A stretch of 64,000 bases of DNA from IMG/VR virus record IMGVR_UViG_3300042566_000180, positions 28,803 to 92,802 of that record. One strand, written 5' to 3'. Below, piece after piece: positions 14,897 to 33,432 of this stretch; positions within the stretch are counted from its first letter, which is position 1, and each line of letters opens with the position of its first letter. Source of the stretch: a virus. The position numbers were made by a program, and so were the translations under genes. Below the pieces are notes generated by a model. It made no database searches. It was given only the letters and a program-made list of their open reading frames with translations, and was not told the origin of the DNA.

Positions 14897-15571
14897 ATGG
14901 CTAAAACTACTATAGGAGATGTAATCTCTAGAATGCGTACACAGATAAAAGCAGTTAGACAAGATGCTTTCTTGACTGACAGAGCTATCTATGCTTTTAT
15001 ATTAAAGCATGCTAAGTGGTTGATGAAACGTGAAGATGGTAAGAACCAACTTCTTAGTTATTCTGGTGTTGTTCAAACTATGGATTATGTAGAACTTATT
15101 GAAGTGGATAAAGTGGAGGCATGCTGCACAGGCTTAACTTCTGATTGTAAAATCAAACGTACAAAAGAGAAGATGCCAATTTTTATGCAGGGTTTTTATG
15201 GTCCACTAATTAGAGCTACCACATCTATTGATGGTTCTCAAAGCGTAAGTTCAACCAATCCAGGTACTTACATGGCAATGACTAAATCTAAAAACTTTAA
15301 GTTTAATAAGTCAAAATACTTTTGGTATTTAAATGACTACTTATACTTTCCTAATTTAGAATGGGATGCTGTACGTATAGAGGGAATCTTTGAAGAAGAT
15401 ATTTCTATGTTTACTTGTGCAGATGACAGTTGTGTTCAAAAAACAGATCAACCGTTTAATGTACCAGATTATTTATTTGGTGAGATAGAGAACAACGTAT
15501 TTAAGGATCTTATGGGAATGATGCAAATTCCTTCAGATACTGCTCAAGATAAACAAAGTGGATTACGATGA
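14897..15571 (+). CDS. Tail ring/connector-like protein
   Basis: A 224-residue protein starting MAKTTIGDVISRMRTQIKAV. The helical N-terminus, beta centre with a short CC/C cluster, and C-terminal segment DQPFNVPDYLFGEIENNVF followed by a small helical tail resemble the ring (tail-tubular, adaptor-type) proteins of crAss-like phages. In that group several ring proteins stack between portal and muzzle. The next gene overlaps its stop by four bases (ATGA). The assignment rests on size, order and general resemblance rather than a catalytic motif. Confidence 0.6.
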   Translation: MAKTTIGDVISRMRTQIKAVRQDAFLTDRAIYAFILKHAKWLMKREDGKNQLLSYSGVVQTMDYVELIEVDKVEACCTGLTSDCKIKRTKEKMPIFMQGFYGPLIRATTSIDGSQSVSSTNPGTYMAMTKSKNFKFNKSKYFWYLNDYLYFPNLEWDAVRIEGIFEEDISMFTCADDSCVQKTDQPFNVPDYLFGEIENNVFKDLMGMMQIPSDTAQDKQSGLR

Positions 15572-16461
15572 AAACTGAATTACAATATAGAACTTTTAAC
15601 CAACTTCTTGATGAAGTTTCGGTGGATTTTAGTACGTATAGTAATGAGGGCATGATTGAAGCTGGTCAGCTTATTAAGGTGGCTCAGCGTGTAAGTTATG
15701 ATTTAGGTTTAAGAATTCATGGAACTAAAGAAAAGATAATTGACATAGAAAAGAATAAGGCTAAGTTACCTGATGATTTCTATGTGTTAAACTATGCATA
15801 CTTGTGTGGAGAGGTAACAGCTACTTATCCTGTAATGCATGGTCGTCATACTGAGAATGTTATACTTGATCCTAGACATTGCAAAACTGTAGATGGTAAG
15901 AATGTATGTAATAAATGCGGAGAAGTTGACACTACTTGTCTTTGTGAAAGAACATACAGTGTAGAGTGTAAGACAGGTGAGAAGATATATGTACAGGTTG
16001 TAGAAAAGCGTAAGTATGAAACTAGGACTTACAACAACTTTGAAAAGATAAGTATCTCTACTTCTACAGGAAGAATAGATGCTTTAAACGATAGTGGTAA
16101 AAACGGATATATTAAGAATGGTTTTGTTTATAGTAATGTAGAAGAAGGAAAACTATTTATATCATATCAAGGTGCATTACAAGATGATGATGGTAATTTA
16201 TTGGTATTAGATCATCCTGTAATTAATGAGTATTATGAATATGCTATGAAGCAGCGTATTCTAGAAAACTTATACATGAACGGGGAGGATGTTTCTCAAA
16301 GAATTCAGCTAGTAGAGCAGCGTTTAAGAGCAGCAAGAAATAATGCATTAAGTATTGTTAACACTCCTGACTTTGCAGAAATGTATAAGTTATGGCAAAC
16401 AAATCGTAAAGCTATGTATAGTAAGTATTACGATATGTTTAAATCAACAGAGGGATTGTAA
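15568..16461 (+). CDS. Tail ring/connector-like protein
   Basis: A 297-residue protein overlapping the upstream gene by ATGA. It begins with a helical domain (FNQLLDEVSVDFSTYSNEGM...LIKVAQRVSYDLGL) and has a cysteine cluster in the middle (CNKCGEVDTTCLC), which may bind zinc. The C-terminus is a long helix (NEYYEYAMKQRILENLYMNG) like other phage connector-ring subunits. Together with the 224-residue protein it would form the stacked rings of a short tail. The zinc-type cysteine cluster is an added feature I cannot match to a known ring family. Confidence 0.6.
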   Translation: MKTELQYRTFNQLLDEVSVDFSTYSNEGMIEAGQLIKVAQRVSYDLGLRIHGTKEKIIDIEKNKAKLPDDFYVLNYAYLCGEVTATYPVMHGRHTENVILDPRHCKTVDGKNVCNKCGEVDTTCLCERTYSVECKTGEKIYVQVVEKRKYETRTYNNFEKISISTSTGRIDALNDSGKNGYIKNGFVYSNVEEGKLFISYQGALQDDDGNLLVLDHPVINEYYEYAMKQRILENLYMNGEDVSQRIQLVEQRLRAARNNALSIVNTPDFAEMYKLWQTNRKAMYSKYYDMFKSTEGL

Positions 16462-16464
16462 TGT

Positions 16465-16824
16465 ATGAAGCTAAGCACCACGATAAATTTACCTACTTAT
16501 AGTTGTAAGATAATTATAAGTATAGTTGACAGTGTTGCTGCTGAAGCAGAGAAGATTTACAAGAAGTGCAAAATAAAAGATGATTTTGGTGATGAAGCAG
16601 AAGGAGCTTTGATTATGCATGATATAGATGTTTACTATTTATTACTAGGTGTTAAATATCTAACGCATAACACAATAGCTCACGAGATGTTTCACGCTGT
16701 AGTTAGAGTGACAGAAGATAGAGGAATATCAGATGAAGAAGCTCAAGCATGGTTAGCTGGACATTTAACCGCAGTGGTATATAAATTTTTAGAAAAGAAG
16801 AAGCTGGAAATAAAACATGGCTGA
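16465..16824 (+). CDS. Small HExxH zinc-metallopeptidase-like protein
   Basis: A 119-residue protein with a single clear HEMFH motif near residue 73, followed by a helix containing EDRGISDEEAQAWLAGHLT. The downstream acidic residue could act as third zinc ligand as in gluzincin-type peptidases. This is a minimal metallopeptidase fold seen in phage genomes. The gene lies between ring and muzzle genes and overlaps the muzzle start by eight bases, so it is probably made in step with it. It could process tail or cargo proteins during assembly, but the substrate is unknown. Confidence 0.65.
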   Translation: MKLSTTINLPTYSCKIIISIVDSVAAEAEKIYKKCKIKDDFGDEAEGALIMHDIDVYYLLLGVKYLTHNTIAHEMFHAVVRVTEDRGISDEEAQAWLAGHLTAVVYKFLEKKKLEIKHG

Positions 16825-19800
16825 ACAAGAATCACAAAATCCGGGAGCTACAACTAATACCTTTAATAAGGGTATGGTTAAAGACTATAACGAGACTTTC
16901 GTTGGTGAGGGATTGTATACGCATGCACGTAACGCAGTTAATAACTCACATGATGGACAAGTGGGAGTAATTGGAAACGAACCAGCTAATTTATATTGTG
17001 CTACACTTCCTTATACATTAATTGGTACTGTACATCTTGGGGATGATCAATGGGCTGTATTTACTACAGATGATCTTAACTCTGAGATTGGAATTTTTGA
17101 TGAGTCAGCTTGTTCTTATACTAAGATTATAAATGATCCATGTTTAAACTTTAAACGTACAAACTTAATCACTGGTGTGTCACGTTCAAGATTTGATTGT
17201 GATACATTACTTTATTGGGACGATGGTCTAAACCCTACTAGAGTTCTGAATATTAATGACATACCTTATGTATGTACAGATAGTACAGTAAATACAGCAC
17301 AACAACCTTTTAAGTATAAACTTATTGGAGCTACTTGTCCTGCTAAAACGGCTAGGACAACCATTATATATAAAGACATTAATTATGTTTCTCAGACTAA
17401 ATATTTAGTTGATGGAGAAGTATTTGAGTTTTTATCTTTTGATAAAGCTTCTGATATGCAGGTTACTACGCAATCCTGTGTTGCAGAACCATGTTATACT
17501 CACATAATTAATATTACAATTCCTACAGCTGGTCGTACTGCTTATGAGTTATGTCTTACAGATCAACAAGCTTACGAACAACAGTTTCCAGGAGGAGTTC
17601 TTGATGCATTAACTGTTATATCTAGAAAATTAGATAATAATGGAAATTCTATACCTTGTGGATGTATATCTCAAAGTACAACCACAACTCCATATAGTTT
17701 AAACGATGTTACAGTTATATCTCCAACTAGTAATGGTATTGGATGTACAACTCCTATCTGTTCAGACAGACTTGATTGTGAAAAGATAAGATTAGCAAGT
17801 ATTGTAAAACATCCTTGCGTGTCTTTACAAAAGGGTAAAGGTGCTGGTACGTTAGCCAATGGTTCTTACCAAGTGGCATTAGCGTATACAGTAGATCAAG
17901 TTAAAGTGACTGACTACTTTGGTTTAAGTGAAGTGCAGTCATTGTTTAGTCATCAGAACTTATCTGGTTCTTTAGAAGTGACTATTACAGACATTGATAA
18001 AAACTTTGACGAGTTTGAGTTAATAGTTATATCTAATATTAACCAGCAGACAGTAGCTAAAAGTCTTGGTTACTATTCTACTAGTCAAGGAGTTATTTAT
18101 ATAAGCAGTGTAGGTCCAGAATTAATTACTGTACCTCTTACAATGGTTGTTCTTAGAACAGAACCAATTGAAAAATCAGATGCATTATATTCTGTAACTG
18201 ATTATTTAATACGTGTAGGTACATATACTAAGTTTAGATTTAACTATCAACAACAAGCTAACGCTATTAGATCGAAGTGGGTAGCTGTACAGTATCCATC
18301 TACATATTACGTAAAGGGAGGAAACAATCCTTCTTTTATGAGAGATGAACAATATGCATTTTTTATTAGATGGGTATACAATACAGGTGAGCGTTCTGAT
18401 TCATATCATATTCCAGGTAGACCTGCTGTAGCATCTGATAGAGCTACTGTTGCAGGAGAAGATGTATTTGAAATAGAAGATGGTGTAACACCACAACGTT
18501 GGAAAGTAGAAAACACAGCAACAATAGACAATTTAACAACAAGAACATTAGCGGATGGTGGTAAAGTTATTGCAAGTGGGCAAATGGGTTATTGGGAATC
18601 TACAGAATTATATCCTGATAATAAACCACAAATATGGGGAGCTTTGTGTGGTCAACCTATTAGACATCATAAGTTTCCTGATGCCACTGTAGATCCTATT
18701 ATTAATCACTTTAATACAGATGGTCAAAACATTGTTGTTTTAGGTGTACAGTTTGAAAACATTACACATCCATTAGGTATAGATGGTAAGCCAATTGCTT
18801 CTGTGGTTGGATATGAAATATTAAGAGGAACAAGAGAAGGTCATAAAACTATTGTAGCTACAGGTGTATTTAACAATATGCGTGAGTATACAATTCAAGA
18901 GGGTACAGTAGGTGTTCAAGGATTGTTCCAGAACTATCCGTATAATGACTTATCAGATGACTACTATTTAACTTCTAATGAAGAGATCATTAATGACGGT
19001 TCATTTACTAATCGTAAGAAAGATCCTTTAAGAGATTATAGAAAAGATATATTTTCTTTTCATAGTCCTGATACAACGTTTACTAAACCATTTTTATCTG
19101 TACAGGAAGTAAAACTGTATGGTGAAGTTTATGGTAAATCTCAAGGAGCTTTTGAGCATCCTTGGAGACATCCTAAAAATAAGTTTATTGGTAAAGATAT
19201 AGAATTCATAAATAAAGCTTTACAAATAGTTAGAATTATTAATAGTATATCTAGTGAATTACCTCCAGGTGCTGTAGAATTTACAGGTAATGATAAACTT
19301 CCTGTTAAACTTAATGTTACTCCTGTAAAACCTGAACCAAAGAAAACAGTATTAGGATCGGTTCTTGGAGGTATAACAAATCTAATTGCTCCTGGTGCAG
19401 GATCATTAGTATCAGGTTTAGTTGATAATATAGCTTATGGTATTAATCAATTTAGTTATGCAGCTCAACTAGTTGTAGTAAAATACATACATACTGAAAC
19501 TACTAGTGCTCAGATACAAATTTTAGTTTATGGTTTAATTCCTAGACGTCAGTATGCTTTACAATATAACTCTCATGGATTTTTTAATAAGTTTACTCAG
19601 TCACAAACTGGTAACAGAAGAAGAAAAATTGATGATAGTTTATATGTAGGAGGAAACGTTCAAGGTTTTAATAATGGATTTAGAATCAATAACTTATACA
19701 GAGGAAACTTTGTAGTTATTAAACTTCCATCTGGAAAGACTTTTGCAAACCCTAGGAATGTTGATAATAGTAGAGTGCTTATTAGTGATGCTGGTGTAGA

Positions 19801-21859
19801 ACCTAGAAAAGGATTTCAAAGAAATATATCATGTCACTATGGTGCTATTAAAATTCCTTTACCAGCACAGTATGGTCAGTTAGAGTCTATTAAACAAGTA
19901 CCAGTTTCTACCTGTGTTGGAAAGACTAATGGTGCAACAGGAGTTAAGTTTACTTCTGATATTTTATTTGGAGGTGATGTATACATCAATAAGTTTACTG
20001 AGAAGAACACTATGCCATTCTTTAATGACTGGATGATTGACTTCCCAGATGAAACTGCTTATGACTATAGAAACTATATAAATGTACCTTATCCAAGATA
20101 TTGGATGAATACTGCTGAAGCAGAATATAAACTTTTACAGAGTTCAGCTAAAGAACATCATCACCTAGATAAAAGTGTAAGTAGATTCTTTTATATCCAC
20201 CAAGGATATATTTACTTGTTTAACTCTGGTGTAAGAGAGTTTTTTGTTGAGTCTGAGATTAACTTAGCTTACCGTGATTGGGAAGACGAAACATCTAAGC
20301 GTCACTATGATAGCAGTTCATTTACTGATCTAAGCTTGATGTTTAGAAGTGATATTATTAGAAGCGGTAACTATTACAAGTATGATTACTCTTTAAGTGT
20401 ATCTAAACTATACAGTAATTTTATTTCATGGGGTAACGTACTTCCTAGGAACTATGATCCTGAGACTTACTCTACATGCTATACATATAGACCTAACCGT
20501 GCAATCTATTCTCTTCCTCAACAGGATGAGATTAGCAAAGATAACTGGAGAGTATTCTTAGCTAATAACTATAAAGACTTTAGCTCTAGAATATCTAATA
20601 TTAAGTCTGTTAATAAAAACGGTGCGTTGTTCATGTTAGCTGATCAAAGTCCTATACAGTTTATGGGAGTAGATCAGTTACAGACAGATGCAGGTACTAA
20701 GATTACTATTGGTGATGGCGGATTGTTTAGTCAACCTTTCCAGAACTTAGTAAATGCTGATGACTCATATGAGTATGGATCAAACCAAGGTAGATATTGT
20801 TCTGTAGGTACTACACATGGTGTATTCTGGGTAAGTCAGAACCAGGGTAAAGTATTTCAGTATGCCGGTGGGTTAAATGAAATATCTCGTAATGGAATGA
20901 AATGGTGGTTTGCTAAGTATTTACCTAGTGAGTTACTAAAAGCTTTTCCAGATTATCCATTATATGATAATCCAGTATCTGGTGTTGGCGTACAGATGAT
21001 CTATGACAATACACACGAGATTTTATATATTACTAAGAAAGATTACAAACCAAAGTTTTCTGACTTAGCATATGACTCTAATGGATTTTATAGAACTATA
21101 AACGGAACCAAGACTTATTACACATTTAAGAGTGAAGCATTTGAAGAAGCTTCTTGGACTATAAGTTATGATCCTAAAAGCAAGATGTGGATTTCTTTCC
21201 ATGATTGGATTCCTACATTCTTACTTCCTGGTAGAGCTCATTTCTTAAGTGTGAATTCTAATACGGTGTGGAAGCATAATCAGCGTTGTGATAAGTTTGC
21301 TAACTTCTATAATAAAGATTATCCGTTTGAGGTTGAGTTTATATCGTCTACAGGTCAGACAGTTACAACTGTAAGGAATATAGAATACTTGCTTGAAACT
21401 TATAAATATCATAATGGATGTGCTGATAAATTTCATATCTTAGATGAGAACTTTGATCAAGCTATTATATATAACTCTGAACAAGTATCTGGTTTATTAG
21501 AGATGACTTTAAAGAGTAAGGTTAATCCAGTAGATATGCTATCTTATCCTCAAGTAGGCACATCTTCTATAAAGATTAATTATTCTAAAGAAGAGAATAA
21601 ATATAGATTTAATCAGTTCTGGGATATAACTAAAAATCGTGGAGAGTTTGCTAGTAATAATGTACCTATGTTTAATACAAGAGCTAATGGTTATCAGTTT
21701 CAAATTAACCCAGCTTACGTAAACTATCAGAAACCTGTATTAGAACGTAAGAAGTTTAGACATAATGTAAATAAAGTGTTGCTTAGAAAACTAACTAGCA
21801 ATGATTTAAAAATGATCTTTAAGATATCTAATCAGAAAATACAACAATCTTTTAGGTAA
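16817..21859 (+). CDS. Large tail (muzzle-like) protein
   Basis: A 1680-residue protein starting MAEQESQNPGATTNTFNKGM. In crAss-like phages the gene after the ring proteins encodes a very large tail muzzle or stabilisation protein, and this gene fits in order and size. It is mostly beta-rich, with aromatic- and Asn-rich segments throughout. A Gly/Ala/Leu-rich stretch at about residues 850-885 (GGITNLIAPGAGSLVSGLVD) could insert in or line the tail tube. No enzyme motif is visible. The following cargo gene starts after three bases. The call is by synteny and size. Confidence 0.6.
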   Translation: MAEQESQNPGATTNTFNKGMVKDYNETFVGEGLYTHARNAVNNSHDGQVGVIGNEPANLYCATLPYTLIGTVHLGDDQWAVFTTDDLNSEIGIFDESACSYTKIINDPCLNFKRTNLITGVSRSRFDCDTLLYWDDGLNPTRVLNINDIPYVCTDSTVNTAQQPFKYKLIGATCPAKTARTTIIYKDINYVSQTKYLVDGEVFEFLSFDKASDMQVTTQSCVAEPCYTHIINITIPTAGRTAYELCLTDQQAYEQQFPGGVLDALTVISRKLDNNGNSIPCGCISQSTTTTPYSLNDVTVISPTSNGIGCTTPICSDRLDCEKIRLASIVKHPCVSLQKGKGAGTLANGSYQVALAYTVDQVKVTDYFGLSEVQSLFSHQNLSGSLEVTITDIDKNFDEFELIVISNINQQTVAKSLGYYSTSQGVIYISSVGPELITVPLTMVVLRTEPIEKSDALYSVTDYLIRVGTYTKFRFNYQQQANAIRSKWVAVQYPSTYYVKGGNNPSFMRDEQYAFFIRWVYNTGERSDSYHIPGRPAVASDRATVAGEDVFEIEDGVTPQRWKVENTATIDNLTTRTLADGGKVIASGQMGYWESTELYPDNKPQIWGALCGQPIRHHKFPDATVDPIINHFNTDGQNIVVLGVQFENITHPLGIDGKPIASVVGYEILRGTREGHKTIVATGVFNNMREYTIQEGTVGVQGLFQNYPYNDLSDDYYLTSNEEIINDGSFTNRKKDPLRDYRKDIFSFHSPDTTFTKPFLSVQEVKLYGEVYGKSQGAFEHPWRHPKNKFIGKDIEFINKALQIVRIINSISSELPPGAVEFTGNDKLPVKLNVTPVKPEPKKTVLGSVLGGITNLIAPGAGSLVSGLVDNIAYGINQFSYAAQLVVVKYIHTETTSAQIQILVYGLIPRRQYALQYNSHGFFNKFTQSQTGNRRRKIDDSLYVGGNVQGFNNGFRINNLYRGNFVVIKLPSGKTFANPRNVDNSRVLISDAGVEPRKGFQRNISCHYGAIKIPLPAQYGQLESIKQVPVSTCVGKTNGATGVKFTSDILFGGDVYINKFTEKNTMPFFNDWMIDFPDETAYDYRNYINVPYPRYWMNTAEAEYKLLQSSAKEHHHLDKSVSRFFYIHQGYIYLFNSGVREFFVESEINLAYRDWEDETSKRHYDSSSFTDLSLMFRSDIIRSGNYYKYDYSLSVSKLYSNFISWGNVLPRNYDPETYSTCYTYRPNRAIYSLPQQDEISKDNWRVFLANNYKDFSSRISNIKSVNKNGALFMLADQSPIQFMGVDQLQTDAGTKITIGDGGLFSQPFQNLVNADDSYEYGSNQGRYCSVGTTHGVFWVSQNQGKVFQYAGGLNEISRNGMKWWFAKYLPSELLKAFPDYPLYDNPVSGVGVQMIYDNTHEILYITKKDYKPKFSDLAYDSNGFYRTINGTKTYYTFKSEAFEEASWTISYDPKSKMWISFHDWIPTFLLPGRAHFLSVNSNTVWKHNQRCDKFANFYNKDYPFEVEFISSTGQTVTTVRNIEYLLETYKYHNGCADKFHILDENFDQAIIYNSEQVSGLLEMTLKSKVNPVDMLSYPQVGTSSIKINYSKEENKYRFNQFWDITKNRGEFASNNVPMFNTRANGYQFQINPAYVNYQKPVLERKKFRHNVNKVLLRKLTSNDLKMIFKISNQKIQQSFR

Positions 21860-21862
21860 GAC

Positions 21863-24800
21863 ATGAATAAGTTATTACAACATATTATTAATGCAGGTGA
21901 TGTAGATCACAAGATTCTTCCTGGGCTTCCAAAAATGCAGAGGGCTGGTACAGTAATGTTTAAAGTTCCAGTTAACGAAAGACCTGTCTATGATAACATA
22001 CCTAATCCTGCTGTTGTTAGAGCAAAAATACAAAAGGATGCTATAGCTAAACAAGTTTTAGCTAAACGTGCTGCAGATCAAGCTGCTAGAGATAGACAAG
22101 GATATATTAGACAAGCAGAACCTGCACAATCCATGGCTTCTAAAGCTTGGTCTATTGCTACTAATCCTATGACAGCTTTAGCTTATAAAGTTCAAGGAAG
22201 AGATATACCTGATCATTTAGAGAGAGGAAAAAAGAACTCTTTAGATTTAGCTGCAAATTTGGTTAATCCTTTTTTCTATATGAATGAAGCAAAAGAGTTT
22301 GGTAAAGGTGTTGGCAATATAGCATATAAAGGAGTAACTGATCCATTTAGTTTAAGTGGAATGGATTTTTTAAATACAGCAATGCATGGTTTAGGAGCTA
22401 TTCCTTTTGTAGCAGAAGGTGTTCAAGGAGCTAACTTTGTTTCTAAAGGATTACAAGGAGCTACTAAAGCATATAAGGGTACAGCAGGAATGACTAGTGG
22501 CTTGGGTAGAATAAGAAATGCAGCTAATGCTGGAGCTCTTGAACTTAGTGGTACAAGACCAGGTGATATATATGGTCACTCATATTTTAATATACCTGCG
22601 GATGAAGTGTCTAGAATGATGTCTCAAGAAATGGCTTCACTACCTAAAGGAGCATTTACTTTTGATGGAAATATGAGTAAAAACTCAGCTCCATTATTTT
22701 GGACACAAGCTGCTAGATCTCCAAAAGGATTTACTGTAGTTAATCCTGGTACAACTCAAACATTAAACTGGTCAGGTAATATGGGTAAAAGGGTTAGTAA
22801 CGCCCTACCAAAAAACGTAGAAAGTACAATACCTGGTGCAGCTACTTACGCTGAGAATTTAAAAAATCGTGTTGACTATTTAAAGAAACTAGGTGATCCT
22901 CAATCTTTACAAAAAGCTGCTCAGTTAGAAAGAGATGGTATAAGTTCTCAAATTATAAGTGATTTACCGTATGCAGCTCAGACAGATTATAACGCTAAAA
23001 AGTCTTTTGAAGAGTTTTTAAATAATTATAAACCTACATTAGATAAACCTATTATTGAAGTTAATAGAAAGACAGGTTTAAACTTTCCTATGACTAAAAT
23101 ATTAGATGAAAACATTGGAAATAATGCATGGGCTTCATATTATGAACAACCTAGTATTTACATGGTAAAAGGTAATCCTTTATCTAGAATTCCTAGTGTT
23201 GTTGGTGACTATGCTAAAAGAAGAACTAATGCTTTTTTTGGACGTAATAGAAATTATGAAAATCCACGTATACCTTTTATTCTAACTAATGCTGCATACA
23301 ATGCTGGTATGAATATGGCTGGTCAAAAAGAACAAAGATATGGTGGAGAAAACAATATGTTTAGAGTGTTTGCTCAAGAAGGTTTAGAATATAAAGGACC
23401 AAGTATTGTAGATTATTTAGCTACTAGAGGATATTCTGGTAAGAAAGCATTTAGAAAAGAACTTGCTGATAAGTATGGTATAGAAGGTTATGATTATTCT
23501 GCTGCTAAGAATACAGAGCTTCTTAATAAACTTCGTGAGAATGATGATTTATTAGAACAAAGTTATCAACCAACACAGGCTCCAATATCTGTAGAAAGAA
23601 TAATGGAGATGGAGAACCAAGCTAGAGCTGCAAGACAAGCTGCTGCTCAAAATGCTGCTCCACCACCAGCTCAACGACCTGTTAATCCTGGTAATTATTA
23701 TACGTTTAGTCCTGAATATGGAGATATGAGAATAACTCCTCCAAAGATAAATGTATCTTTACAACCTAAAGTTAAGTATGATAAGTTTTCTTTAAAGCCT
23801 CAAATGGTTATTCCTTTACCTTTTGGATTTGGTAAACGAAATACTACTACTCAAATAACACCTGAAGTTACACCTGAAGTTACTCGTCCTGTAACTGGTG
23901 CTACTCCAAAATCAACACTAACTTTTCCTCAATACAATCCTTTTGTTCCAGCTACTAGAAAACCAATACTGGGTCCGCTTACTTCTGAGGTATACAATAC
24001 TGAAGAAGAAGTAAGTCCTATGAATCAAGAATCAGGATTTGGTGTAAAAAATTTAATGGGTCAAAACAATATGTTTACTAACCCAAATTTTTATTCTTTC
24101 TATAGACCACAACAAAAAAACTTACTTCCATATATACCAGCTAATAAACCAGCTGTAAAAACTGAGAAGGTTACAACTGAAGTAGAAAAACCTTGGTATG
24201 AAGAATTTATTGATAATACATCAAACTTCTTTTCAGATCTTTATGATTCTTATTCAGAAGCTGTAAATAAAAGTGGTCTTGATTTTAGCAACATGAGTTT
24301 TGGACCATCGGGTATGTCTCCACAAGGAGCTAATGAGATAACAAGAGACGTTACTAAAAAAGCAATAGGTTTGTTTTCTCCAGACATGGCTCAAAAGTAT
24401 GAAAACTGGTTAGACCGTCAACAGGCTATTAAGAACATGGCTAACGATCCTAAGAGTAGAATCATAGTTCCTAAGTATGATTTTGCTCCTATGTATGTTA
24501 CAGGAGATACTATTCCTGATGCTGGTGGTCGTCAATACCATATACCAGAAAGTATGGATATTGATGCATTACGTTTTGGTGTACGTAACAGAGGAGACTT
24601 TACCCCTATAGATTCAGAAGCTGCTTCTATTACAGCATTCCATCCTTTTGAAAATGCTAAAACATATTTTGCTAGTGCTAAAGATGATCCAGCTAACGCT
24701 ACATATTTAGCTTATAGTCCAGATGGTAAAATACAAGTTGGTCAACGTAAAGACTTTGAAAATAAAGATGTACAAGTAAGTCGTGTATTTTCTAATAGAG

Positions 24801-27800
24801 TAGTAGATTTTATTAGAGAACCATCAGGAAGTATTAAAAAAGTTGCTGCTGGATCTAAGGTTAGTAAGAACGCTTTTTCACCAGCTGTTACAGTACTTGA
24901 TGACCAAGGTAAACAAGTACAAGGAAAGCTTAATTTAGTGCTACCTAAAGGAGATAAAGCTGATGAAGCTTTTGGTGTAGCAACAGGTGGACGTTTTATT
25001 TTTAAGACTCCTGATGGACAGACTCGTTTAGTAAGTGGATCTTTAAAAAATATTGAAGAAGAGTTTAAACGTATTAAAGGAAAGAATCCATATGTAACTG
25101 TAGTTAGTTTAGATAATGGTTCTTATTCTCGTGGACTTCGTACAAAAGATCAAAAATTTACTGCTGCTGATTTAAGAGCATATGATAATTTAAATACAGG
25201 TGGTGGTAACTTTGCTTATTTACTACCTGGTCAACAAACTAGTAGACCATTGGCTAAGTTTGCAGAGTTTGAACAAGAAGCTACTAAGAAACTTCAATCA
25301 TTATATCCTGGTAAAAAGGTTAGTGTTGGCTATCAAAACACTGGTCTTTATGATAAGACTGGTGGACGTGATATACAATCACAACTTGAGATTCAGAAAA
25401 AAGGTAACTCTCAAACTCCAGTATCTCTTCATAATTTTGATGCAGCAAAAGATTACGTTCTATATGTAGATGGTAAACCTATTGATGCTAATGTAAATAA
25501 AAAGTTATATAAAGATGTTCTTTGGAGTGCTGCTGATAAAACAGGAATGTATCATCTTGAAGACTGGGACGTTGCACATATTGGCTTAGCTAAAGAAGGA
25601 CAAAAGACTGCGTTTGATGAACTTAAAGCTAAGTATCCTGAGATCTTTACAAATCCTAACTTTGTTAAAAGTTTAGAATATATTAATAAGAATAAATCTA
25701 ATCCTACTTATGCAGAGTATTATGAGTTGTTAAATAACATTCAACCGTTTACTGGACAACCTCGTATTACTGAATTTGAAAAACAAAAGGGTAGTGCTAA
25801 GAAGCAACGAGGTGGTCAAACTGATTCTACTTTAGAAAATATATTTGAAATAATTGATCCAACAGGACTAAGTTCTTGGGATGATGTTTACAAATCATAC
25901 AAAGAAACTGGAATGTCTCCTCAAACAGAACTTGAAATATTTGGTGCACTTCCTTTGTTAGGAAAGGTAGGTAAATTTGGTAAGATGATGAGTAATGCAT
26001 CTAAAGTTGGTTTGAAAGCCCGTCATAAAATTGGATTAGATGCAGTTAGTAAAGTTATACAGGGAGTACCCTATGCAGGTCGTGGTACAGATGCTATACA
26101 AGCTATTCAACAAGCTCCTAATGTTCCATTTTTTCCTTCAGCTCCCCCAGCTGAAGTAGGTCAATTTGGAGTGTATGCAGGAATGCAAAATTATAAAAAA
26201 CAAGGTGGACCTATATTAGATCCTCGTGGTCAATGGGCTCACCCTGGTAAAGTTACTCGTATACCTGGATCAGATATTACAATGCAAGGTGTACCATATC
26301 CTGTATTAGGAATAGGTAACAACGGTAAGAAACAAGTAATGTATCCTGGTAAGGATTATAACTTTGGTGGTGCATCTTATGTAGATGAATATCCAATGAT
26401 GCAAAAAGGTGGGTGGTCAGGTGGTGGTCTATCTAGATCTGACTTGGCAACTATGGCAGCTCTTAATAAAAACGTTAATAAGAAAAAGTATGCTCATAAT
26501 CATGACACTAGAATAACAGTTGAAGATGGTTCTTTAAAAGAAGGTTACAAAGATATGCGTAATTTTATGCAGTATTGGTTAACTGAAAGAGCTAAGGATC
26601 CTAAGTTTACTGAATGGGCTAATAGCAGATTATCTGTTTTAGATAATTTATCAGGAAAATATAAAACATACACTAATAAAGATATAGAGACAAATGAAAA
26701 TCTATATAATACTCAGGCTTTTTATACCCCTAAAGATTCTTCATTAAACTTTAATACTGATTATCCAACAAGTTTTAGTGCCCCTACTCAAATTCATGAA
26801 CTTACTCATAAAATGGATTATGAGGATAATACTTTTTATGATCAACCTAGATGGTTTTGGGATGCTAATTTATACAGTACTCCTAGTAGTTTTATTTCTA
26901 AACAAGTAATTCCTAAAAACAAAAATTTTAAAACTGATAGATATGTTAGTACCAGAAATGAATATGATTATCTTTCTACTCCAACTGAAATAAATGCTCG
27001 TCTTAATGAGTTTAGATATCAGTATAATCTAGATCCAAAAAAGAAGTATACAGCAGAGGATATGAAAAAGATCATTAATGATCATAATAACTATAAGGGA
27101 AGTTTTAAAAATTTTCGTGATGAACTTTTTAAGAGCAAAGAAAATAGTCTGAATAGTTTAGATGATATTTTAAAGATAATTGGAAACGATCCTCAAAAGC
27201 TTGCAGATCTTCATAATAATGTAGTAAAGAATAAAACATCTTATGCTTCTGATGCTATACCTCAAGTTAAGAATGGTGGACTTTTAAGCAAGAATGTTTC
27301 TTGTTCTAATTGTGGATGGTCATGGAAAGCTGCTGATGGTGGTTATGATCCAATGACTTGTCATAAGTGTGGTGGTACTGTTAAGATGAAAAGTGGTGGA
27401 CAACATGGTGGTTTAGATAGATGGTTTGCAGAGAAGTGGGTAGATGTAAAGACTGGTAAAGCGTGCGGTAGACAAGAAGGAGAAAAGAGAGCCGGCTATC
27501 CAGCATGTCGTCCTTCTAAAAGAGTAAACTCTCAGACACCTAAGACATCATCTGAAATGAGTTCTGCAGAAAAAGATAAATTTAAAAGGACTAAAACAAG
27601 TAGTGAACGTATTCCATACAATCATAAAAAAATGCAGTTTGCTGGTCAAGTTTCTTCAGCTGATAGTGTAAGAAACATTGCTGGAAATATATTAAAGTAT
27701 GAGGAACTTAGAGGTGGTCCTGGCGGTTCTCCTTTACCATATTATAGTGATCCTAGTTACATGAAAATGTTAATGGAAAAGGTTTATCCAGAAGTAAAAA

Positions 27801-28216
27801 AGATAATGCCAGGTGCAAGTGCTATGGAAGCTGGTGAAGCTATGGATTTTATATTTAATGCTGGTTGGGATAAAACTAATAATAAAATAACTAAAGATCC
27901 TAGAGCATATGCTTTACAAGAATATTACAGACAATATGATCCATCTAAATTAGATGCTGATGGCAAATGGTCTGGTAGAAAAAATCCAGCTTATTCTTTT
28001 GATAAAGAGTATGCTAATACTATTGGTAAACTTCCTGAAAATAAGAGAAGAGTTTTAATGAATAAAGGTAGAGATTGGTATTATAGAAATATAAATAACC
28101 CAGCACCGGGTGTACCTAATAGTGATTATTATGATACATGGTATGGACGTATATGGAACACTAATCAGTATGCTCCTTTTAATCCTAATAATCCTAAATT
28201 TAAATACAAAAAATAA
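21863..28216 (+). CDS. Giant multidomain virion cargo protein with metallopeptidase, zinc-ribbon and lysozyme-like regions
   Basis: A 2117-residue protein following the muzzle gene. The N-terminal ~250 residues are helical with hydrophobic segments. Residues 1451-1515 carry a conserved block LDPRGQWAHPGK...TMQGVPYP...YVDEYPM common in large Bacteroidota phage virion proteins. Residues 1520-1740 contain HELTH (His1645, Glu1646, His1649), a zinc-peptidase motif. A zinc ribbon follows (Cys1814, 1817, 1833, 1836), then a basic block WFAEKWVDVKTG...RAGYPACRPSKR resembling DUF5872. The last ~190 residues (ILKYEELRGGPGGSP...AMDFIFNAGWD) look like a lysozyme-type glycosidase. Gly-Gly motifs sit at the boundaries. 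It is probably packaged and injected to breach the cell wall. Confidence 0.75.
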   Translation: MNKLLQHIINAGDVDHKILPGLPKMQRAGTVMFKVPVNERPVYDNIPNPAVVRAKIQKDAIAKQVLAKRAADQAARDRQGYIRQAEPAQSMASKAWSIATNPMTALAYKVQGRDIPDHLERGKKNSLDLAANLVNPFFYMNEAKEFGKGVGNIAYKGVTDPFSLSGMDFLNTAMHGLGAIPFVAEGVQGANFVSKGLQGATKAYKGTAGMTSGLGRIRNAANAGALELSGTRPGDIYGHSYFNIPADEVSRMMSQEMASLPKGAFTFDGNMSKNSAPLFWTQAARSPKGFTVVNPGTTQTLNWSGNMGKRVSNALPKNVESTIPGAATYAENLKNRVDYLKKLGDPQSLQKAAQLERDGISSQIISDLPYAAQTDYNAKKSFEEFLNNYKPTLDKPIIEVNRKTGLNFPMTKILDENIGNNAWASYYEQPSIYMVKGNPLSRIPSVVGDYAKRRTNAFFGRNRNYENPRIPFILTNAAYNAGMNMAGQKEQRYGGENNMFRVFAQEGLEYKGPSIVDYLATRGYSGKKAFRKELADKYGIEGYDYSAAKNTELLNKLRENDDLLEQSYQPTQAPISVERIMEMENQARAARQAAAQNAAPPPAQRPVNPGNYYTFSPEYGDMRITPPKINVSLQPKVKYDKFSLKPQMVIPLPFGFGKRNTTTQITPEVTPEVTRPVTGATPKSTLTFPQYNPFVPATRKPILGPLTSEVYNTEEEVSPMNQESGFGVKNLMGQNNMFTNPNFYSFYRPQQKNLLPYIPANKPAVKTEKVTTEVEKPWYEEFIDNTSNFFSDLYDSYSEAVNKSGLDFSNMSFGPSGMSPQGANEITRDVTKKAIGLFSPDMAQKYENWLDRQQAIKNMANDPKSRIIVPKYDFAPMYVTGDTIPDAGGRQYHIPESMDIDALRFGVRNRGDFTPIDSEAASITAFHPFENAKTYFASAKDDPANATYLAYSPDGKIQVGQRKDFENKDVQVSRVFSNRVVDFIREPSGSIKKVAAGSKVSKNAFSPAVTVLDDQGKQVQGKLNLVLPKGDKADEAFGVATGGRFIFKTPDGQTRLVSGSLKNIEEEFKRIKGKNPYVTVVSLDNGSYSRGLRTKDQKFTAADLRAYDNLNTGGGNFAYLLPGQQTSRPLAKFAEFEQEATKKLQSLYPGKKVSVGYQNTGLYDKTGGRDIQSQLEIQKKGNSQTPVSLHNFDAAKDYVLYVDGKPIDANVNKKLYKDVLWSAADKTGMYHLEDWDVAHIGLAKEGQKTAFDELKAKYPEIFTNPNFVKSLEYINKNKSNPTYAEYYELLNNIQPFTGQPRITEFEKQKGSAKKQRGGQTDSTLENIFEIIDPTGLSSWDDVYKSYKETGMSPQTELEIFGALPLLGKVGKFGKMMSNASKVGLKARHKIGLDAVSKVIQGVPYAGRGTDAIQAIQQAPNVPFFPSAPPAEVGQFGVYAGMQNYKKQGGPILDPRGQWAHPGKVTRIPGSDITMQGVPYPVLGIGNNGKKQVMYPGKDYNFGGASYVDEYPMMQKGGWSGGGLSRSDLATMAALNKNVNKKKYAHNHDTRITVEDGSLKEGYKDMRNFMQYWLTERAKDPKFTEWANSRLSVLDNLSGKYKTYTNKDIETNENLYNTQAFYTPKDSSLNFNTDYPTSFSAPTQIHELTHKMDYEDNTFYDQPRWFWDANLYSTPSSFISKQVIPKNKNFKTDRYVSTRNEYDYLSTPTEINARLNEFRYQYNLDPKKKYTAEDMKKIINDHNNYKGSFKNFRDELFKSKENSLNSLDDILKIIGNDPQKLADLHNNVVKNKTSYASDAIPQVKNGGLLSKNVSCSNCGWSWKAADGGYDPMTCHKCGGTVKMKSGGQHGGLDRWFAEKWVDVKTGKACGRQEGEKRAGYPACRPSKRVNSQTPKTSSEMSSAEKDKFKRTKTSSERIPYNHKKMQFAGQVSSADSVRNIAGNILKYEELRGGPGGSPLPYYSDPSYMKMLMEKVYPEVKKIMPGASAMEAGEAMDFIFNAGWDKTNNKITKDPRAYALQEYYRQYDPSKLDADGKWSGRKNPAYSFDKEYANTIGKLPENKRRVLMNKGRDWYYRNINNPAPGVPNSDYYDTWYGRIWNTNQYAPFNPNNPKFKYKK

Positions 28217-28225
28217 TTATATATT

Positions 28226-29617
28226 ATGGCAAACAAACCTAATAATCCTGCCTTGTGGTCTAGAGCTAAGTCTATGGCTAAACAAAAATTTGATGTCTAC
28301 CCTAGTGCTTATGCTAACGGATGGGCTGCTAAGTGGTATAAATCTAAAGGCGGCACTTGGCGTAAAGCTGAATACGGTATGGAAGTAATGGGAGGTGGTG
28401 GAGAAAAAATGCCACCTGAAATAGCTCGTGCACGTTTTGCAGCAGCTGGTAATCTAGATCAAATGGATAATTACGGTTATGCCTATGGTGGATATGCTCC
28501 AGAAATGATGTATGGTGGAAACCAATATATGCAGCAGGGTGGACAACAAGATCAGATTATGATGGTTATTCAGCAGTTTGCTCAAATGAACCAAGTAGAA
28601 CCTGAAAAGATTTTACAGCAATTACAGCAGATGTCTCCAGAAGATCAGCAAAGAGCTTTTGAACAAATGGTTCAAGCTGTACAACAACAAGGAGCTGGTT
28701 CACAACAACCTGGTATGCAACAACCAGACATGCAGCAAGCTGCTATGAGATATGGTGGTTATATGACAGGAGTGTTTGCTGAAGGTGGTGAACCAAACGG
28801 TGGTATGGCACTAGGTCAAATGTCTGCTGTTGCTGATAAGATGAATAAACTACGTCAGTTTGTTTCTCCAGAACAAAACTTAGATCCATGGATTGCTTCT
28901 AAGCTTGCTGTGATTGATGATAGTGTAAATAGTATTTCAGATTATATGATGTATAATCCTGAAGCTCAAGGTGAAGAAATGGAAGATGAAGAGTATGAGC
29001 AAGAAGATGAAAAAGAAATGATGGCAAGAGGTGGATACACTGTAACTAGAAGTAATGATCGTAAGGGTAAGACACATAAAGTGACAGGACCTGGTGGAGT
29101 TGTTAAATATTTTGGTGATTCTAAGTTAGGTCAGCATCCTAAAGATCCAGAAAGAAAGAAAGCTTTCTATGCTCGTCATAAAAAGAACTTAGCTAATAAT
29201 CCTTTCTTTAGAGCATTTGCTAGAGCTACATGGAAAGAAGGTGGTACTACATTTAGTGGTAATGCTTTTTATGAGAAAGGTGGTACTAACAATGCAGGTT
29301 TTAGAGCTCTACCTGAATTTGTACAACAACAGATATTATCTAATATGGCATACGGTGGTATACAATTAGATCCTGCTAAAGCTGGCACATTTAAAGCACA
29401 GGCTACTCGTATGGGTATGGGAGTACAAGAAGCTGCATCAGCAATACTTAACGCACCAGAAGGAAGATATAGTCCTGCTATGAGGAAAAAAGCTAACTTT
29501 GCTAGGAACTTTGCTAAGCAAATGGGTGGTCCAGTAGAAGGTGATATATTAGATGTCACTCCAGAAGAACTACAAATGTTAAAACAAGGTGGTTATAACT
29601 TTGAAATTATTGACTAA
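28226..29617 (+). CDS. Virion cargo protein with Gln-rich core and DUF5754-like domain
   Basis: A 463-residue protein. Residues 1-45 (NPALWSRAKSMAKQKFDVYP and ANGWAAKWYK) form a small basic module seen in many phage proteins and possibly DNA-binding. Residues 95-175 are rich in Gln and Met (QQLQQMSPEDQQRAFEQMV) and probably form a helical bundle or disordered linker. Residues 268-338 (KGKTHKVTGPGG...FGDSKLGQHPKD...ARHKKNL) resemble DUF5754, a basic domain of unknown function. More than ten Gly-Gly motifs, many preceded by Tyr or Lys, separate these blocks. It overlaps the next gene by one base (TAATG). Role: packaged internal protein, inferred from context. Confidence 0.6.
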   Translation: MANKPNNPALWSRAKSMAKQKFDVYPSAYANGWAAKWYKSKGGTWRKAEYGMEVMGGGGEKMPPEIARARFAAAGNLDQMDNYGYAYGGYAPEMMYGGNQYMQQGGQQDQIMMVIQQFAQMNQVEPEKILQQLQQMSPEDQQRAFEQMVQAVQQQGAGSQQPGMQQPDMQQAAMRYGGYMTGVFAEGGEPNGGMALGQMSAVADKMNKLRQFVSPEQNLDPWIASKLAVIDDSVNSISDYMMYNPEAQGEEMEDEEYEQEDEKEMMARGGYTVTRSNDRKGKTHKVTGPGGVVKYFGDSKLGQHPKDPERKKAFYARHKKNLANNPFFRAFARATWKEGGTTFSGNAFYEKGGTNNAGFRALPEFVQQQILSNMAYGGIQLDPAKAGTFKAQATRMGMGVQEAASAILNAPEGRYSPAMRKKANFARNFAKQMGGPVEGDILDVTPEELQMLKQGGYNFEIID

Positions 29618-31377
29618 TGAAAATACGTATTACAGGAAAAGGTTTACCTAAAGCTCAACTTGCTGGACAACAGAAAAGTAATGTCCCTACTACTTTAAGT
29701 TATAATGGTGAATTAATATCTCCTAATGATCCTAGATATGCTCAACTTATGAGTCAGTCTTCATTATTTTTAAATTCTGGTAGACAAAAACTCGGTTTGC
29801 AAAATGGTAATAAGATAGATGCTCTTAAAGCCGCTGGTCCTAAGTTTCCTAGTTTAACTTTTAAACCGTTTGGTCAAGCACCTGTACAACCTAGTGGTAG
29901 TTCTTCTATAGTTACTCCTACTGTACAACCTACTAATACTACTGCTGCTCCAGCTGCAAATACAACATCTACAACTCCTAAAAGATTTTGGCATTCTGAA
30001 TGGGATGATGAGGAGTTTGATACAGATCCTGCTTCACCGTTTTATCAAGCACCACAAGCTGCAGCAGCTAATACTCAATCTAATACATCCACAAATCCAG
30101 TTAGTTGGTACAGTAAAAATATAGGTCAACCAGTAGAAAAAGCTTTTCAAGATATTAATAGATTAACATCATGGGGAAACTTTGGTACTGAACTTGTAAA
30201 TAGTTATAAAAGAAAACAAGAATTTGATAAAAGGTTAAGACGCCAAACATCTACAGATTCTTTGTTTCCTGAAGTACCTAGTGAGATGTCAGGTAACCGT
30301 GGAGACTATGTAGTTAGTGGTAGCAGATTTGGAGAGTTTAGACCTGATGAGTATGTTGTAAATAAAGGCATGTATACTGGTCAATTCTTACCAAGAATGG
30401 CACAGTATGGTGGAGGCATTATACCTGATGAGTTAATGTTACCGGTTGACCAAATTCCTTTTTCTATGCCTTTACAGAGTCCAATGGCTACAGGTGAAGC
30501 TTACGCTACTTCTGAAAATGCTTCTCCAGCTCCAGTTAAATCTAGTGGTGCTAATCCGGTTGCAGAACAAACATGGAAAGAAGTTTCTTCTCAGTTTCAA
30601 GGAGTTCAAAATTGGGGGATATGGGGTGATGCAAACCATAAGAAATCAGTAAGTGATCATAATACTGGAGATGCTTTAGATATTGGTATAACAGGTTTAG
30701 ATCAAGGAAACGAAATAGCTCAAAAGCTTATTAAAGAAGCTCAAGATAAAAATATTAAATATATTATTTGGAATAAACAGATTTGGAATCCATCTGTTTC
30801 TAATTCATGGAGACCATATAATGGCAAAAGTCCACATACAGATCATGTTCATGTAAGTTTTAATAGAGCATCTGGTGGTAATGTGGATGGTGAAATTGCT
30901 TTAAGTCATAATAATCCTTTGAATATACATCATGGTGATTTTACTTCTAAGTATGGTGGTGTACAAGGTGCTAAAGATAGTGGTGGTTTTGTAAGTAAAT
31001 TTCCAGATTTTCAAACAGGTATTAGAGCAGCTCAAGATCTTTTATTTGGTCCGGCTTATTCTAACCTTACAATATCTCAAGCTAGAAACAAATGGGTTAG
31101 TGGTAGTCCAGATAAAACTAATGCGTCTACCCCAGATATTGTAAAAGCTATGGGGACAGATAAAGTGTTAGCAGATCTTACTCCTGAAGAACGTGATAAG
31201 TTAATAAAACAATTTGCTAGATGGGAAGGTAAGCAAGCATACAATAAATTAAGTGGTATGAAGTTGTATGCTGATGGCGGTACAATATCACAATATGAAT
31301 CTGGAGGTATATATGAACTAACAGAGGATGAAATAAAAAGTATATTAGCTTCAGGTGGTGAAGTAGAATTTCTATAA
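29617..31377 (+). CDS. Bifunctional wall hydrolase: M15-type peptidase plus lysozyme-like domain
   Basis: A 586-residue protein. Residues 305-420 have the zinc-site pattern of M15/VanY-type D,D-peptidases: SDHNTGDALDIG (His348, Asp355) and HTDHVHV (His410, His412). This would cut peptide stems of peptidoglycan. Residues 424-547 (SHNNPLNIHH...KYGGVQGAKDSGG...FARWEGKQAY) look like a lysozyme or transglycosylase-like module that would cut the glycan. The N-terminal 300 residues are Pro/Thr/Gln-rich linker with a block RPDEYVVNKGMYTGQFLPRM shared with other virion proteins. Gly-Gly motifs flank the domains and end the protein. It overlaps the preceding gene and is probably carried in the virion for penetration. 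Confidence 0.75.
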   Translation: MKIRITGKGLPKAQLAGQQKSNVPTTLSYNGELISPNDPRYAQLMSQSSLFLNSGRQKLGLQNGNKIDALKAAGPKFPSLTFKPFGQAPVQPSGSSSIVTPTVQPTNTTAAPAANTTSTTPKRFWHSEWDDEEFDTDPASPFYQAPQAAAANTQSNTSTNPVSWYSKNIGQPVEKAFQDINRLTSWGNFGTELVNSYKRKQEFDKRLRRQTSTDSLFPEVPSEMSGNRGDYVVSGSRFGEFRPDEYVVNKGMYTGQFLPRMAQYGGGIIPDELMLPVDQIPFSMPLQSPMATGEAYATSENASPAPVKSSGANPVAEQTWKEVSSQFQGVQNWGIWGDANHKKSVSDHNTGDALDIGITGLDQGNEIAQKLIKEAQDKNIKYIIWNKQIWNPSVSNSWRPYNGKSPHTDHVHVSFNRASGGNVDGEIALSHNNPLNIHHGDFTSKYGGVQGAKDSGGFVSKFPDFQTGIRAAQDLLFGPAYSNLTISQARNKWVSGSPDKTNASTPDIVKAMGTDKVLADLTPEERDKLIKQFARWEGKQAYNKLSGMKLYADGGTISQYESGGIYELTEDEIKSILASGGEVEFL

Positions 31378-31398
31378 ATTTGTAATATCTATAAGAAT

Positions 31399-33432
31399 AT
31401 GAAAAAGTATAAAGTAAGAATTAAAAGTGCTCCAGAATCTATGGCGTATGGTGGTCAAAAAAACTATGGTCTAGATCTTGGGCAACGAGATGTATACACT
31501 GATATGAACCAAAATCCATATGAGTCAGTATCTAACACTCTTCAACCTGTTGATAGAGCTGAAGCTAATATTGAAGCTGAGCTTGGTGAAACAGCATATG
31601 GAGACTTTAATAATGATGGTCGTAAAGAACATATGAAGATTGGTGGTGAAAGACATACTAATGGTGGTACACCTTTAAATGTTCCTGAAGGTACTTTTAT
31701 TTATTCTGATACAAAGAAGTTACGAATAGGTGGACCTGTACTTGCAAAGTTTGGTAAGTCAGAAAACACTAAACAGAAATTTACCCCAGCAGCTTTAGCT
31801 AAGCAGTATGATGTTAACAAGTACAGAGCTATACTTGATGATCCTTATGCTGATAAGATGGCTAAACGTACAGCTGAAAGAATGATTGATAACTATGAAA
31901 AAAAACTTGGTGGACTTGCATTAGTACAAGAGTCTATGAAAGGATTTCCTCAAGGTATTCCTGATGTAGCTATGTCTGTATTACCAGAAGGTATGGGACA
32001 ACAACTTGCTGAGATGGGAGGTTTTTATGGTGGTGATGAAGGTTATTATCAAGGTGGTGGAACTACTCCTAAAAAAGTTAAGAAGGAAGAAATAAGTAAA
32101 TATGAGAAAGAAGGATATAAGCGTGTAGGTAATACTAATGTATGGAGAAAAGCAACATCTGGTAAAGATACTAAAGATATTATTATAACTCCTGGTAAAC
32201 CAGGTACTATATCTGGGGGTACACCAGGAACATTAACTCCAGGATATAATATTCCAACTGGTGGCAGTAGTAGAGGTGGTAGTGGACCATGTGCTAATCT
32301 TAAGTACACAGTCGCTGATATGAATGCTAGACCTAATTGTTATAGTACTTTTTTAAATAAACAAGGTTTTAAAGATGCTTCAGATGGGGAAAAGCAAAAA
32401 GGATTAGATGAGCTTTTACGTGGTAGAATGCCAAAGTATACACCTGGTACTAAACCTACAACTACACCTACAACACCTGAGACTAAAACTTGTCCTGAAG
32501 GTTATACACCAGATCCTAATGATCCTACTAAGTGTATAAAAGCATGGGAAAAGATGGATGAGATTACCTATGAAGAAGATCCTACTACTATAACTACAAC
32601 CGGTGGCGGTGGTGGAGGCGGTGGTAGAAGACCGTTCTTTGGTATGCAGTTTATGGTTCCTCCTAAACGTTACACTCCTTATGCAGCACCTCTTAATGCT
32701 ATGATACCAGAACCTACGTTCTACGATCCTAATAGAGAGTTAGCTGAAGGTGCATCTAATCGTAACATGATGGCGGCTTATATGTCTCAAATGGATCCTC
32801 AGCAGTTTTCTGCTAGAGCTAGTGCATTAAATGCACAAGGAGCTGAGCAAGCAGCTAACACTATGGGTAGATATCAAAACATGAATGTTGGGGTAGCTAA
32901 TCAGTTTAGTCCTTTACAAACTGATATTATGAATAGAGTGATGGCTTATAGAGCAGATGCTGGAGACAAGTTAGCATTTAATGCTCAGCAAGAAGATAAA
33001 GCTTATCGTAATACTATGAGAATGGATCTTAAAGCTAGAGAAATGTATAATATGAATGAGCGTGATAGATACAGTAAGCTTAACATGCTTAATGAAACTA
33101 ATCCGTATTATTCTATAGAAGAAGGACCACAAGGTGAAACTCTTAAATGGAAAGATAAGAATAACTGGATGAGTATGATTACTGGACAAAGTGCTGCACC
33201 ATCTGAACAAAGTTTAGCAGCTATGAGAAGATTTGCTCTTGAATTAAAAAATGAAGGACATGATGCTGCTACTATTAATGGGTTTTTAAGATCTCAATTT
33301 CCTAATGCTTTTCAATCTAATAGGGGTGCAGGTAATGCTGCAGCTATTAATGCTCAATATGCTGCTTTAAATAGAGCACCTATGGCTCAAAGTGCATACC
33401 CATTTGGTTATGATGATGGATATGGTTATTAA
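31399..33432 (+). CDS. Virion cargo protein with Gly-Gly module, unknown function
   Basis: A 677-residue protein. The N-terminal ~115 residues (GGERHTNGGTPLNVPEGTFI followed by YSDTKKLRIGG) form a conserved block of large structural proteins in crAss-like and other Bacteroidota phages. The middle is a Pro/Thr/Gly linker (TTPTTPETK, eight Gly in a row near residue 405) with a short Cys module (CPEGYTPDPNDPTKC). The C-terminal ~240 residues are helical with Met/Asn/Gln-rich sequence (YMSQMDPQQFSARASALNAQ). It resembles packaged internal proteins more than enzymes. A repeat and promoter-like motif follow it, so a new transcript may start downstream. Confidence 0.6.
   Translation: MKKYKVRIKSAPESMAYGGQKNYGLDLGQRDVYTDMNQNPYESVSNTLQPVDRAEANIEAELGETAYGDFNNDGRKEHMKIGGERHTNGGTPLNVPEGTFIYSDTKKLRIGGPVLAKFGKSENTKQKFTPAALAKQYDVNKYRAILDDPYADKMAKRTAERMIDNYEKKLGGLALVQESMKGFPQGIPDVAMSVLPEGMGQQLAEMGGFYGGDEGYYQGGGTTPKKVKKEEISKYEKEGYKRVGNTNVWRKATSGKDTKDIIITPGKPGTISGGTPGTLTPGYNIPTGGSSRGGSGPCANLKYTVADMNARPNCYSTFLNKQGFKDASDGEKQKGLDELLRGRMPKYTPGTKPTTTPTTPETKTCPEGYTPDPNDPTKCIKAWEKMDEITYEEDPTTITTTGGGGGGGGRRPFFGMQFMVPPKRYTPYAAPLNAMIPEPTFYDPNRELAEGASNRNMMAAYMSQMDPQQFSARASALNAQGAEQAANTMGRYQNMNVGVANQFSPLQTDIMNRVMAYRADAGDKLAFNAQQEDKAYRNTMRMDLKAREMYNMNERDRYSKLNMLNETNPYYSIEEGPQGETLKWKDKNNWMSMITGQSAAPSEQSLAAMRRFALELKNEGHDAATINGFLRSQFPNAFQSNRGAGNAAAINAQYAALNRAPMAQSAYPFGYDDGYGY

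Follow-up and report, generated by a model that had tools for sequence, protein, structure and literature searches.

Gly-Gly motifs bound small cassettes in probable virion cargo proteins of a Crassvirales-type phage

The four proteins

We examined four neighbouring open reading frames (ORFs) of 2117, 463, 586 and 677 amino acids (aa), termed here p2117, p463, p586 and p677, in a 64,000-nucleotide stretch of virus DNA (the window; bases 28803-92802 of the 92.8-kb record IMGVR_UViG_3300042566_000180). An original prediction had placed these ORFs correctly and had described cargo proteins in which Gly-Gly (GG) motifs punctuate domain boundaries, possibly as protease cleavage sites or packaging tags. 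We find that they contain small cassettes bounded by the motif [M/Y/F/W/H]-[A/Q]-x-G-G. The features, in window positions, are as follows.

21863..28216, +, p2117, 2117 aa, adjoining the muzzle gene; a string of cassettes
21863..21949, +, N-terminal tag of p2117, MNKLLQHIINAGDVDHKILPGLPKMQRAG; orthologues end in KMQKGG
26207..26413, +, cassette K6 of p2117 (IPxSxITMxGVPYPV..YPMMQKGG), GG joints at aa 1448 and 1516
26435..27274, +, block of p2117 between GGs, carrying HELTH (aa 1645-1649), which resembles a zincin metallopeptidase by sequence motif only
27281..27400, +, cassette K7 of p2117, zinc (Zn)-ribbon-like, GG on both sides (13/13 proteins)
27413..27637, +, cassette K5 of p2117, second half of DUF5872 (PF19197); a free-standing gene in other phages
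28226..29617, +, p463, 463 aa, the string K4-K9-K1-K2-C-terminal tag, with 15 GG runs
28226..28354, +, cassette K4 of p463, first half of DUF5872, ending in KSKGG
29036..29245, +, cassette K1 of p463 (KGKTHKVTGP..KYFGD..FYARHKKN), basic, GG-flanked in 38/38
29360..29530, +, cassette K2 of p463 (IQLDPAKAGTF..KKANFARN), between MAYGG and KQMGG; homologous to ΦcrAss001 gp45 aa 376-428
29531..29614, +, C-terminal tag of p463, DVTPEELQMLKQGGYNFEIID
29617..31377, +, p586, 586 aa, with an M15/extensin-like block (aa ~308-417), a lysozyme-like block and a C-terminal tag
31297..31374, +, C-terminal tag of p586, YESGGIYELTEDEIKSILASGGEVEFL, of the same type as that of p463
31399..33432, +, p677, 677 aa, tentatively a C1-like cargo protein
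31399..31455, +, N-terminal tag of p677, MKKYKVRIKSAPESMAYGG; GG and the M at -3 are invariant in 23 orthologues

Gly-Gly content and the joint motif

GG runs were counted against composition shuffles (2,000 shuffles, with p=5e-4 as the floor). The excess is clear for p463 (15 runs vs. 5.3 expected, p=5e-4) and p677 (12 vs. 7.0, p=0.02) but weak for p2117 (17 vs. 12.2, p=0.08) and p586 (7 vs. 4.3, p=0.10), such that the predicted GG richness is firm by count for two of the four proteins. The contrast drawn with other large proteins was borne out, as the shuffles gave no excess for the 438-aa nuclease (1 vs. 0.9), the 1680-aa ORF in the muzzle slot (p1680; 8 vs. 7.3) or the giant ORFs of 4545 aa (16 vs. 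17.1), 1718 aa (4 vs. 6.3) and 1060 aa (2 vs. 5.5).

The original prediction gave the motif as (Y/K/M/Q)GG. The GG is indeed conserved, but the residue directly before it is a weaker neighbour than the residue at -3, which is the strongest, and A/Q at -2, which comes next. Within the four window proteins, M, Y, F, W or H stands at -3 in 19 of 47 positions (7.5 expected). Across 74 non-redundant cassette-bearing proteins, picked by cassette models and not by GG content, such a bulky residue occupies -3 in 532 of 998 positions (152 expected), with A/Q at -2 in 369 (144 expected), V/I/M at +2 in 267 (139 expected) and no bias at +3; the p-values for this set overstate the evidence, since its members are related and hence not independent. 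The joint GGs are near-invariant in 23-27 orthologues (MAYGG18 of p677; GG187, GG339 and GG434 of p463, ~100%), and the residue at -3 is often fixed across them, so that the conservation proposed as a check was found in relatives. The codons at -3 vary (ATG, TAT, TTT and TGG), which shows that the motif is maintained at the protein level.

Homology breaks at the joints

Many relatives of p463 align with it over only a part, and these parts end at GG. Internal BLAST breakpoints fell within 5 residues of a GG in 158 of 229 cases for p463 and 117 of 198 for p2117, compared to 82 and 16, respectively, expected by circular shift. The predicted placement of GG between domains therefore holds for these two proteins, but no such enrichment was found for p586 or p677 taken alone, and none of the 94 breakpoints of p1680 lay near a GG. 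In a non-redundant set of 121 proteins chosen for their GG content, 882 of the 2,219 distinct breakpoints were within 5 residues of a GG (344 expected, z 26), and GG ranked first of 324 dipeptides; 184 control proteins had no excess (36 of 482 vs. 30 expected).

Because BLAST ends may be pulled a few residues toward a shared GG, we also used cassette models built without their flanks. GG was present upstream and downstream in every protein for K1 (KGKTHKV; 38/38 and 38/38), K2 (ANFARN; 28/28 and 28/28), K3 (YSKRGLWDN; 27/27 and 26/26) and K7 (13/13 and 13/13), and upstream of the C-terminal tag in 20/20. This rule is not trivial, since two pieces depart from it: K8, an endolysin-type module, is without GG flanks (5/21 and 0/21), and for K9 the GGs are largely confined to one side (21/23 and 6/23). 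The pieces occur in 40 different orders or architectures, and some p463 orthologues start at MYYQQGG, an exact loss of all upstream sequence. These comparisons show that the GG joints are where cassettes have been lost or duplicated, put in a new order, and traded from one protein or phage to another.

K1, K2 and K4 are small and basic (Lys/Arg vs. Asp/Glu: 17 vs. 5, 9 vs. 3 and 8 vs. 1, respectively). K4 and K5 match the first and second halves of DUF5872 (PF19197), a family of small, basic proteins that stand free in cyano-, roseo- and other phages; here, each half is embedded with GG joints in its own cargo protein, K5 towards the end of p2117 and K4 at the start of p463. Three phages carry both halves in a single chain. 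Phage C72C1 and Roseobacter phage CRP-207 encode them as small genes that are separate but adjacent (L096:419-825 and L097:402-816), which suggests that the Pfam family fuses two independent modules. In Prochlorococcus phage P-SCSP2, a gene of 86 aa between the scaffold and capsid genes corresponds to one of the halves (71% identity). Searches of the phage record collection with p677 and with K1, K3 and K6 gave no match, and the HELTH block of p2117 had no match in Pfam. Among the larger blocks between GGs, we read one in p586 as M15/extensin-like and the end of p2117 as lysozyme-like, both resembling cell-wall enzymes, and we infer that the cassettes may have DNA-binding or envelope-breaching roles.

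The phage and its relation to ΦcrAss001 gp45

The phage is of the Crassvirales type. Its major capsid protein matches Crass_capsid (PF23898, 7e-31), further matches among the crass capsid, portal and ring proteins are to PF25702 (2e-21) and PF24228 (2e-12), and the TerL-, portal- and capsid-type genes lie in the record outside the window. Most of the 136 phage records that the portal protein matches are crass-like; Leptolyngbya phage Lbo-JY46 (32%) ranks first. Gene order agrees with this assignment: the ring genes 2 and 1 are followed by the muzzle-slot ORF, the four GG proteins and then the 1060-, 4545- and 1718-aa ORFs, and the order of muzzle, cargo and giant RNA polymerase-type slot also occurs in Lbo-JY46 and ΦcrAss001 (gp44 to gp50). 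The genes upstream of p2117 are:

14897-15571, crassvirus ring protein 2, by profile match
15568-16461, crassvirus ring protein 1, by profile match
16817..21859, +, muzzle-slot protein p1680, used as a control (GG not enriched; 0 of 94 breakpoints near GG)

Based on this synteny and on the homology of a cassette to a segment of gp45, the four GG proteins are very probably virion cargo. The gp45 protein (C1) of ΦcrAss001 was demonstrated in virions by mass spectrometry and cryo-electron microscopy (cryo-EM) (PMC10172136). It contains 20 GG runs (~11.6 expected), and nine of ten C1 or C1-slot proteins of cultured and reference crassviruses, including phi17:2 gp41, are GG-enriched at p<0.05; second-cargo homologues are mostly not. 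In gut C1 proteins, F (5x) and H (7x) are enriched at -3 and A (2.9x) at -2, a related F-A-x-GG. The K2 hidden Markov model matches cr108 (3.5e-29) and gp45 376-428 (1e-5; 97% in a profile comparison). Its equivalent in gp45 is likewise GG-bounded, and it is doubled in DAC17 and sits behind the portal domain in cr108. A gp45 piece (264-329/343) between FAEGG263 and KAFGG332 is shared by itself with crAss002, cr3 and cr8. By sequence comparison, the same architecture, with F-A-x-GG, is present in gut crassvirus C1 cargo.

The window proteins resemble C1 in the gene slot after the muzzle, the GG enrichment, the homologous K2 and the exchange of GG-bounded pieces, which in C1 takes place among gut crassviruses. 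They differ in dividing the content among four ORFs, in having far more small cassettes and in carrying M/Y rather than F/H at -3. Homology to gp45 was detected for K2 of p463 only. A weak match joins p677 to the gp45 portal domain (E 7e-4 in a single comparison, probability 26%), and p677 may be the portal-binding C1 equivalent; a structural comparison of p677 with gp45 or any Protein Data Bank (PDB) chain gave no convincing match. Two segments of gp45 have been docked by cryo-EM, 214-245 in the tail and 425-552 at the portal, the latter modelled as a single stretch across GG427, 434 and 447 (PMC10172136). Both segments fall between GG joints. There are also GGs that are not at boundaries, such as GG447 in the gp45 portal domain and the GG or GY within the C-terminal tag.

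Terminal tags

Short N-terminal tags ending in the GG motif are common to the cargo proteins, which upholds the predicted placement of GG near termini as far as these tags are concerned. The use of the terminal pieces as packaging tags, also proposed originally, is plausible. The C-terminal tag of p463 and p586 has a beta-helix-beta pattern, occurs on many cargo proteins of relatives and is a candidate loading signal. We rejected it as a double-glycine (C39) leader: its GG has the wrong spacing, is C-terminal and alternates with GY, for which reasons it rather resembles a helix cap, and C39 itself was not found. As a separate observation, the portal protein (L026:7598-10336) ends in YDVRGGKK, and several cargo proteins end in GG with a basic tail (crAss001 gp45, AKGGKVRTKKKKGLTYG; phi17:2 gp41, KLKWGGKKR).

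Joints, cleavage sites or binding motifs

We lean slightly towards the GG motifs being conserved, uncut joints in beads-on-a-string crassvirus virion cargo proteins, and we infer that the cargo chain normally remains covalent. The motif would close the last helix of a cassette, with a bulky residue three positions before and Gly-Gly as helix stop and hinge. Each cassette could then fold independently and unfold for passage via the narrow tail, and a cassette swap would leave its neighbours undisturbed. The terminal pieces (MKxYKVRIKxxPxxMAYGG, MNKLLQHI..KMQKGG and the C-terminal xLTxEExxxhxxGGxhEFL) would probably be docking or packaging tags. A low-confidence AlphaFold2 (AF2) model of p463 puts 15 of 16 GGs in coil; of the 13 joint GGs, 7 begin no more than 3 residues from a helix end (3.0 expected, p=0.013), a placement that would fit a hydrophobic-x-x-Gly helix stop and so offers a plain structural reason for the motif. 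Several points weigh against uncut joints. The phage is uncultured, and intactness of the chain in its own virions is presumed; the AF2 model is weak (mean predicted local distance difference test score 48.5); GG427 of crAss001 has N at -3 and is perhaps an atypical joint, the canonical ones of gp45 being FAEGG263 and FAYGG562; and a plain hinge has no obvious need for a fixed -3 residue and a strict GG, a need that recognition by a partner would have.

The leading alternative, which we regard as doubtful, is that the cargo proteins are polyproteins, with an unrecognised phage or host protease cutting at [M/Y/F]xxGG during or after head filling, removing the N-terminal tags and freeing the cassettes; that this applies to crassvirus cargo at large, with cuts at [M/F/Y]-x-x-Gly-Gly, seems a shade less probable still. 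The specificity upstream of GG resembles adenain, (M/I/L)xGG, or the GG-x of African swine fever virus (ASFV), and the short N-terminal tags stop precisely at the motif, in the manner of the T4 capsid-targeting sequence. K4 and K5 exist as free-standing proteins of 57-86 aa in other phages, and cleavage would account for the indifference to gene fusion and fission seen in K5 and K4, which form one chain in three phages and belong to two genes here. Pieces of gp45 are found on both sides of the portal tunnel (PMC10172136). However, three of the p463 joints are only 8-9 aa apart, GG427 (427-428) lies inside the stretch modelled in ΦcrAss001 virions, and the text of the ΦcrAss001 atlas does not contain the words cleav, protease or proteoly (PMC10172136). 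Adenain (C5), Ulp1 (C48), C39, S78, S77 and ClpP had no match in 13-15 sibling records, although the C48, C5 and S77 searches had no positive control above the cut-off, many of the genes lack annotation and an unknown protease fold is possible; nor was a protease among the 20 conserved genes of a sibling genome. The originally suggested cleavage by a phage protease is unproven, and it is the continuous gp45 425-552 stretch, the silence of the atlas text on cleavage, the protease nulls and the helix-stop explanation that lead us to favour uncut joints.

We consider it improbable that GG is instead a motif by which the chain binds, at many points along its length, to the ring, portal, muzzle lumen or another part of the virion, or by which the copies stick to one another. 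The motif is strict, three copies cluster in p463 (aa 88, 97 and 105), and the tail-bound gp45 helix 214-245 starts 3 residues after AYGG209, but binding alone does not explain homology that breaks exactly at GG, and PMC10172136 names no contact of the motif with another virion protein in its text. Short shared DNA at the GG codons might also steer exchange without any role of the protein. GGT-GGN codons do recur and exchange does occur at the joints; such hot spots are nevertheless very unlikely, and we rejected GG as a DNA recombination site, as the -3 codon varies while its residue class is kept, only ~6 bp are shared and joints are conserved where exchange is not visible. Chance or glycine richness, to which the non-significant counts of p2117 and p586 alone would point, can practically be dismissed in view of the breakpoint excess and the -3 bias, and it is refuted by the cassette-flank counts.

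Comparison with known systems

Cleavage motifs of the T4/phiKZ type end in Glu (LxE, AxE, SxE), and the structural polyproteins of adenovirus and ASFV have Gly-Gly sites, those of adenovirus being preceded by a bulky residue. T4 internal proteins and phiKZ ejection proteins reportedly are cargo delivered into the host and cut by the prohead protease; the same is reported for SPN3US ejection proteins (PMC7411985). As in those phages, different proteins here share short N-terminal tags ending in a fixed motif, but their motifs end in Glu and their prohead protease is known, whereas none was found here. Unlike in adenovirus and ASFV, C5 and C48 were not detected, and the bulky residue is one position farther from GG than in the adenain consensus. 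Mosaic ejection proteins are known in general (PMC8954989). The open-access literature, with subscription papers and preprints outside the search, yielded no description of the GG joint motif.

Among human gut viruses, crassviruses are the most abundant, and the cargo that they pack and eject amounts to several megadaltons. A constant joint motif supplies a rule for parsing unannotated giant proteins into modules and predicts the units that move together, and the tags that recur at the N- and C-termini are candidates for virion-loading signals. Whether the joints are cut can be tested on existing ΦcrAss001 mass spectra. If they were, one gene would deliver many small DNA-binding and cell-wall proteins to the host and shed its packaging tags, and tailed phages are not known to have such a system of Gly-Gly processing.

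Other features

The RNA polymerase label of the giant ORFs (1060, 4545 and 1718 aa) was not confirmed by sequence. The 4545-aa ORF (36695-50332) contains only DUF7831, near its C-terminus, and lacks a DxDGD motif. Searches of the PDB by phmmer with p2117, p1680, p4545 and p1718 gave no match. The host on record for Lbo-JY46 (PP438436; L091, L093) is a cyanobacterium, and this phage has its virion genes in crass-type order and shares the C-terminal cargo tag. Other reports of crassviruses are from Bacteroidota, and this host record therefore deserves checking.

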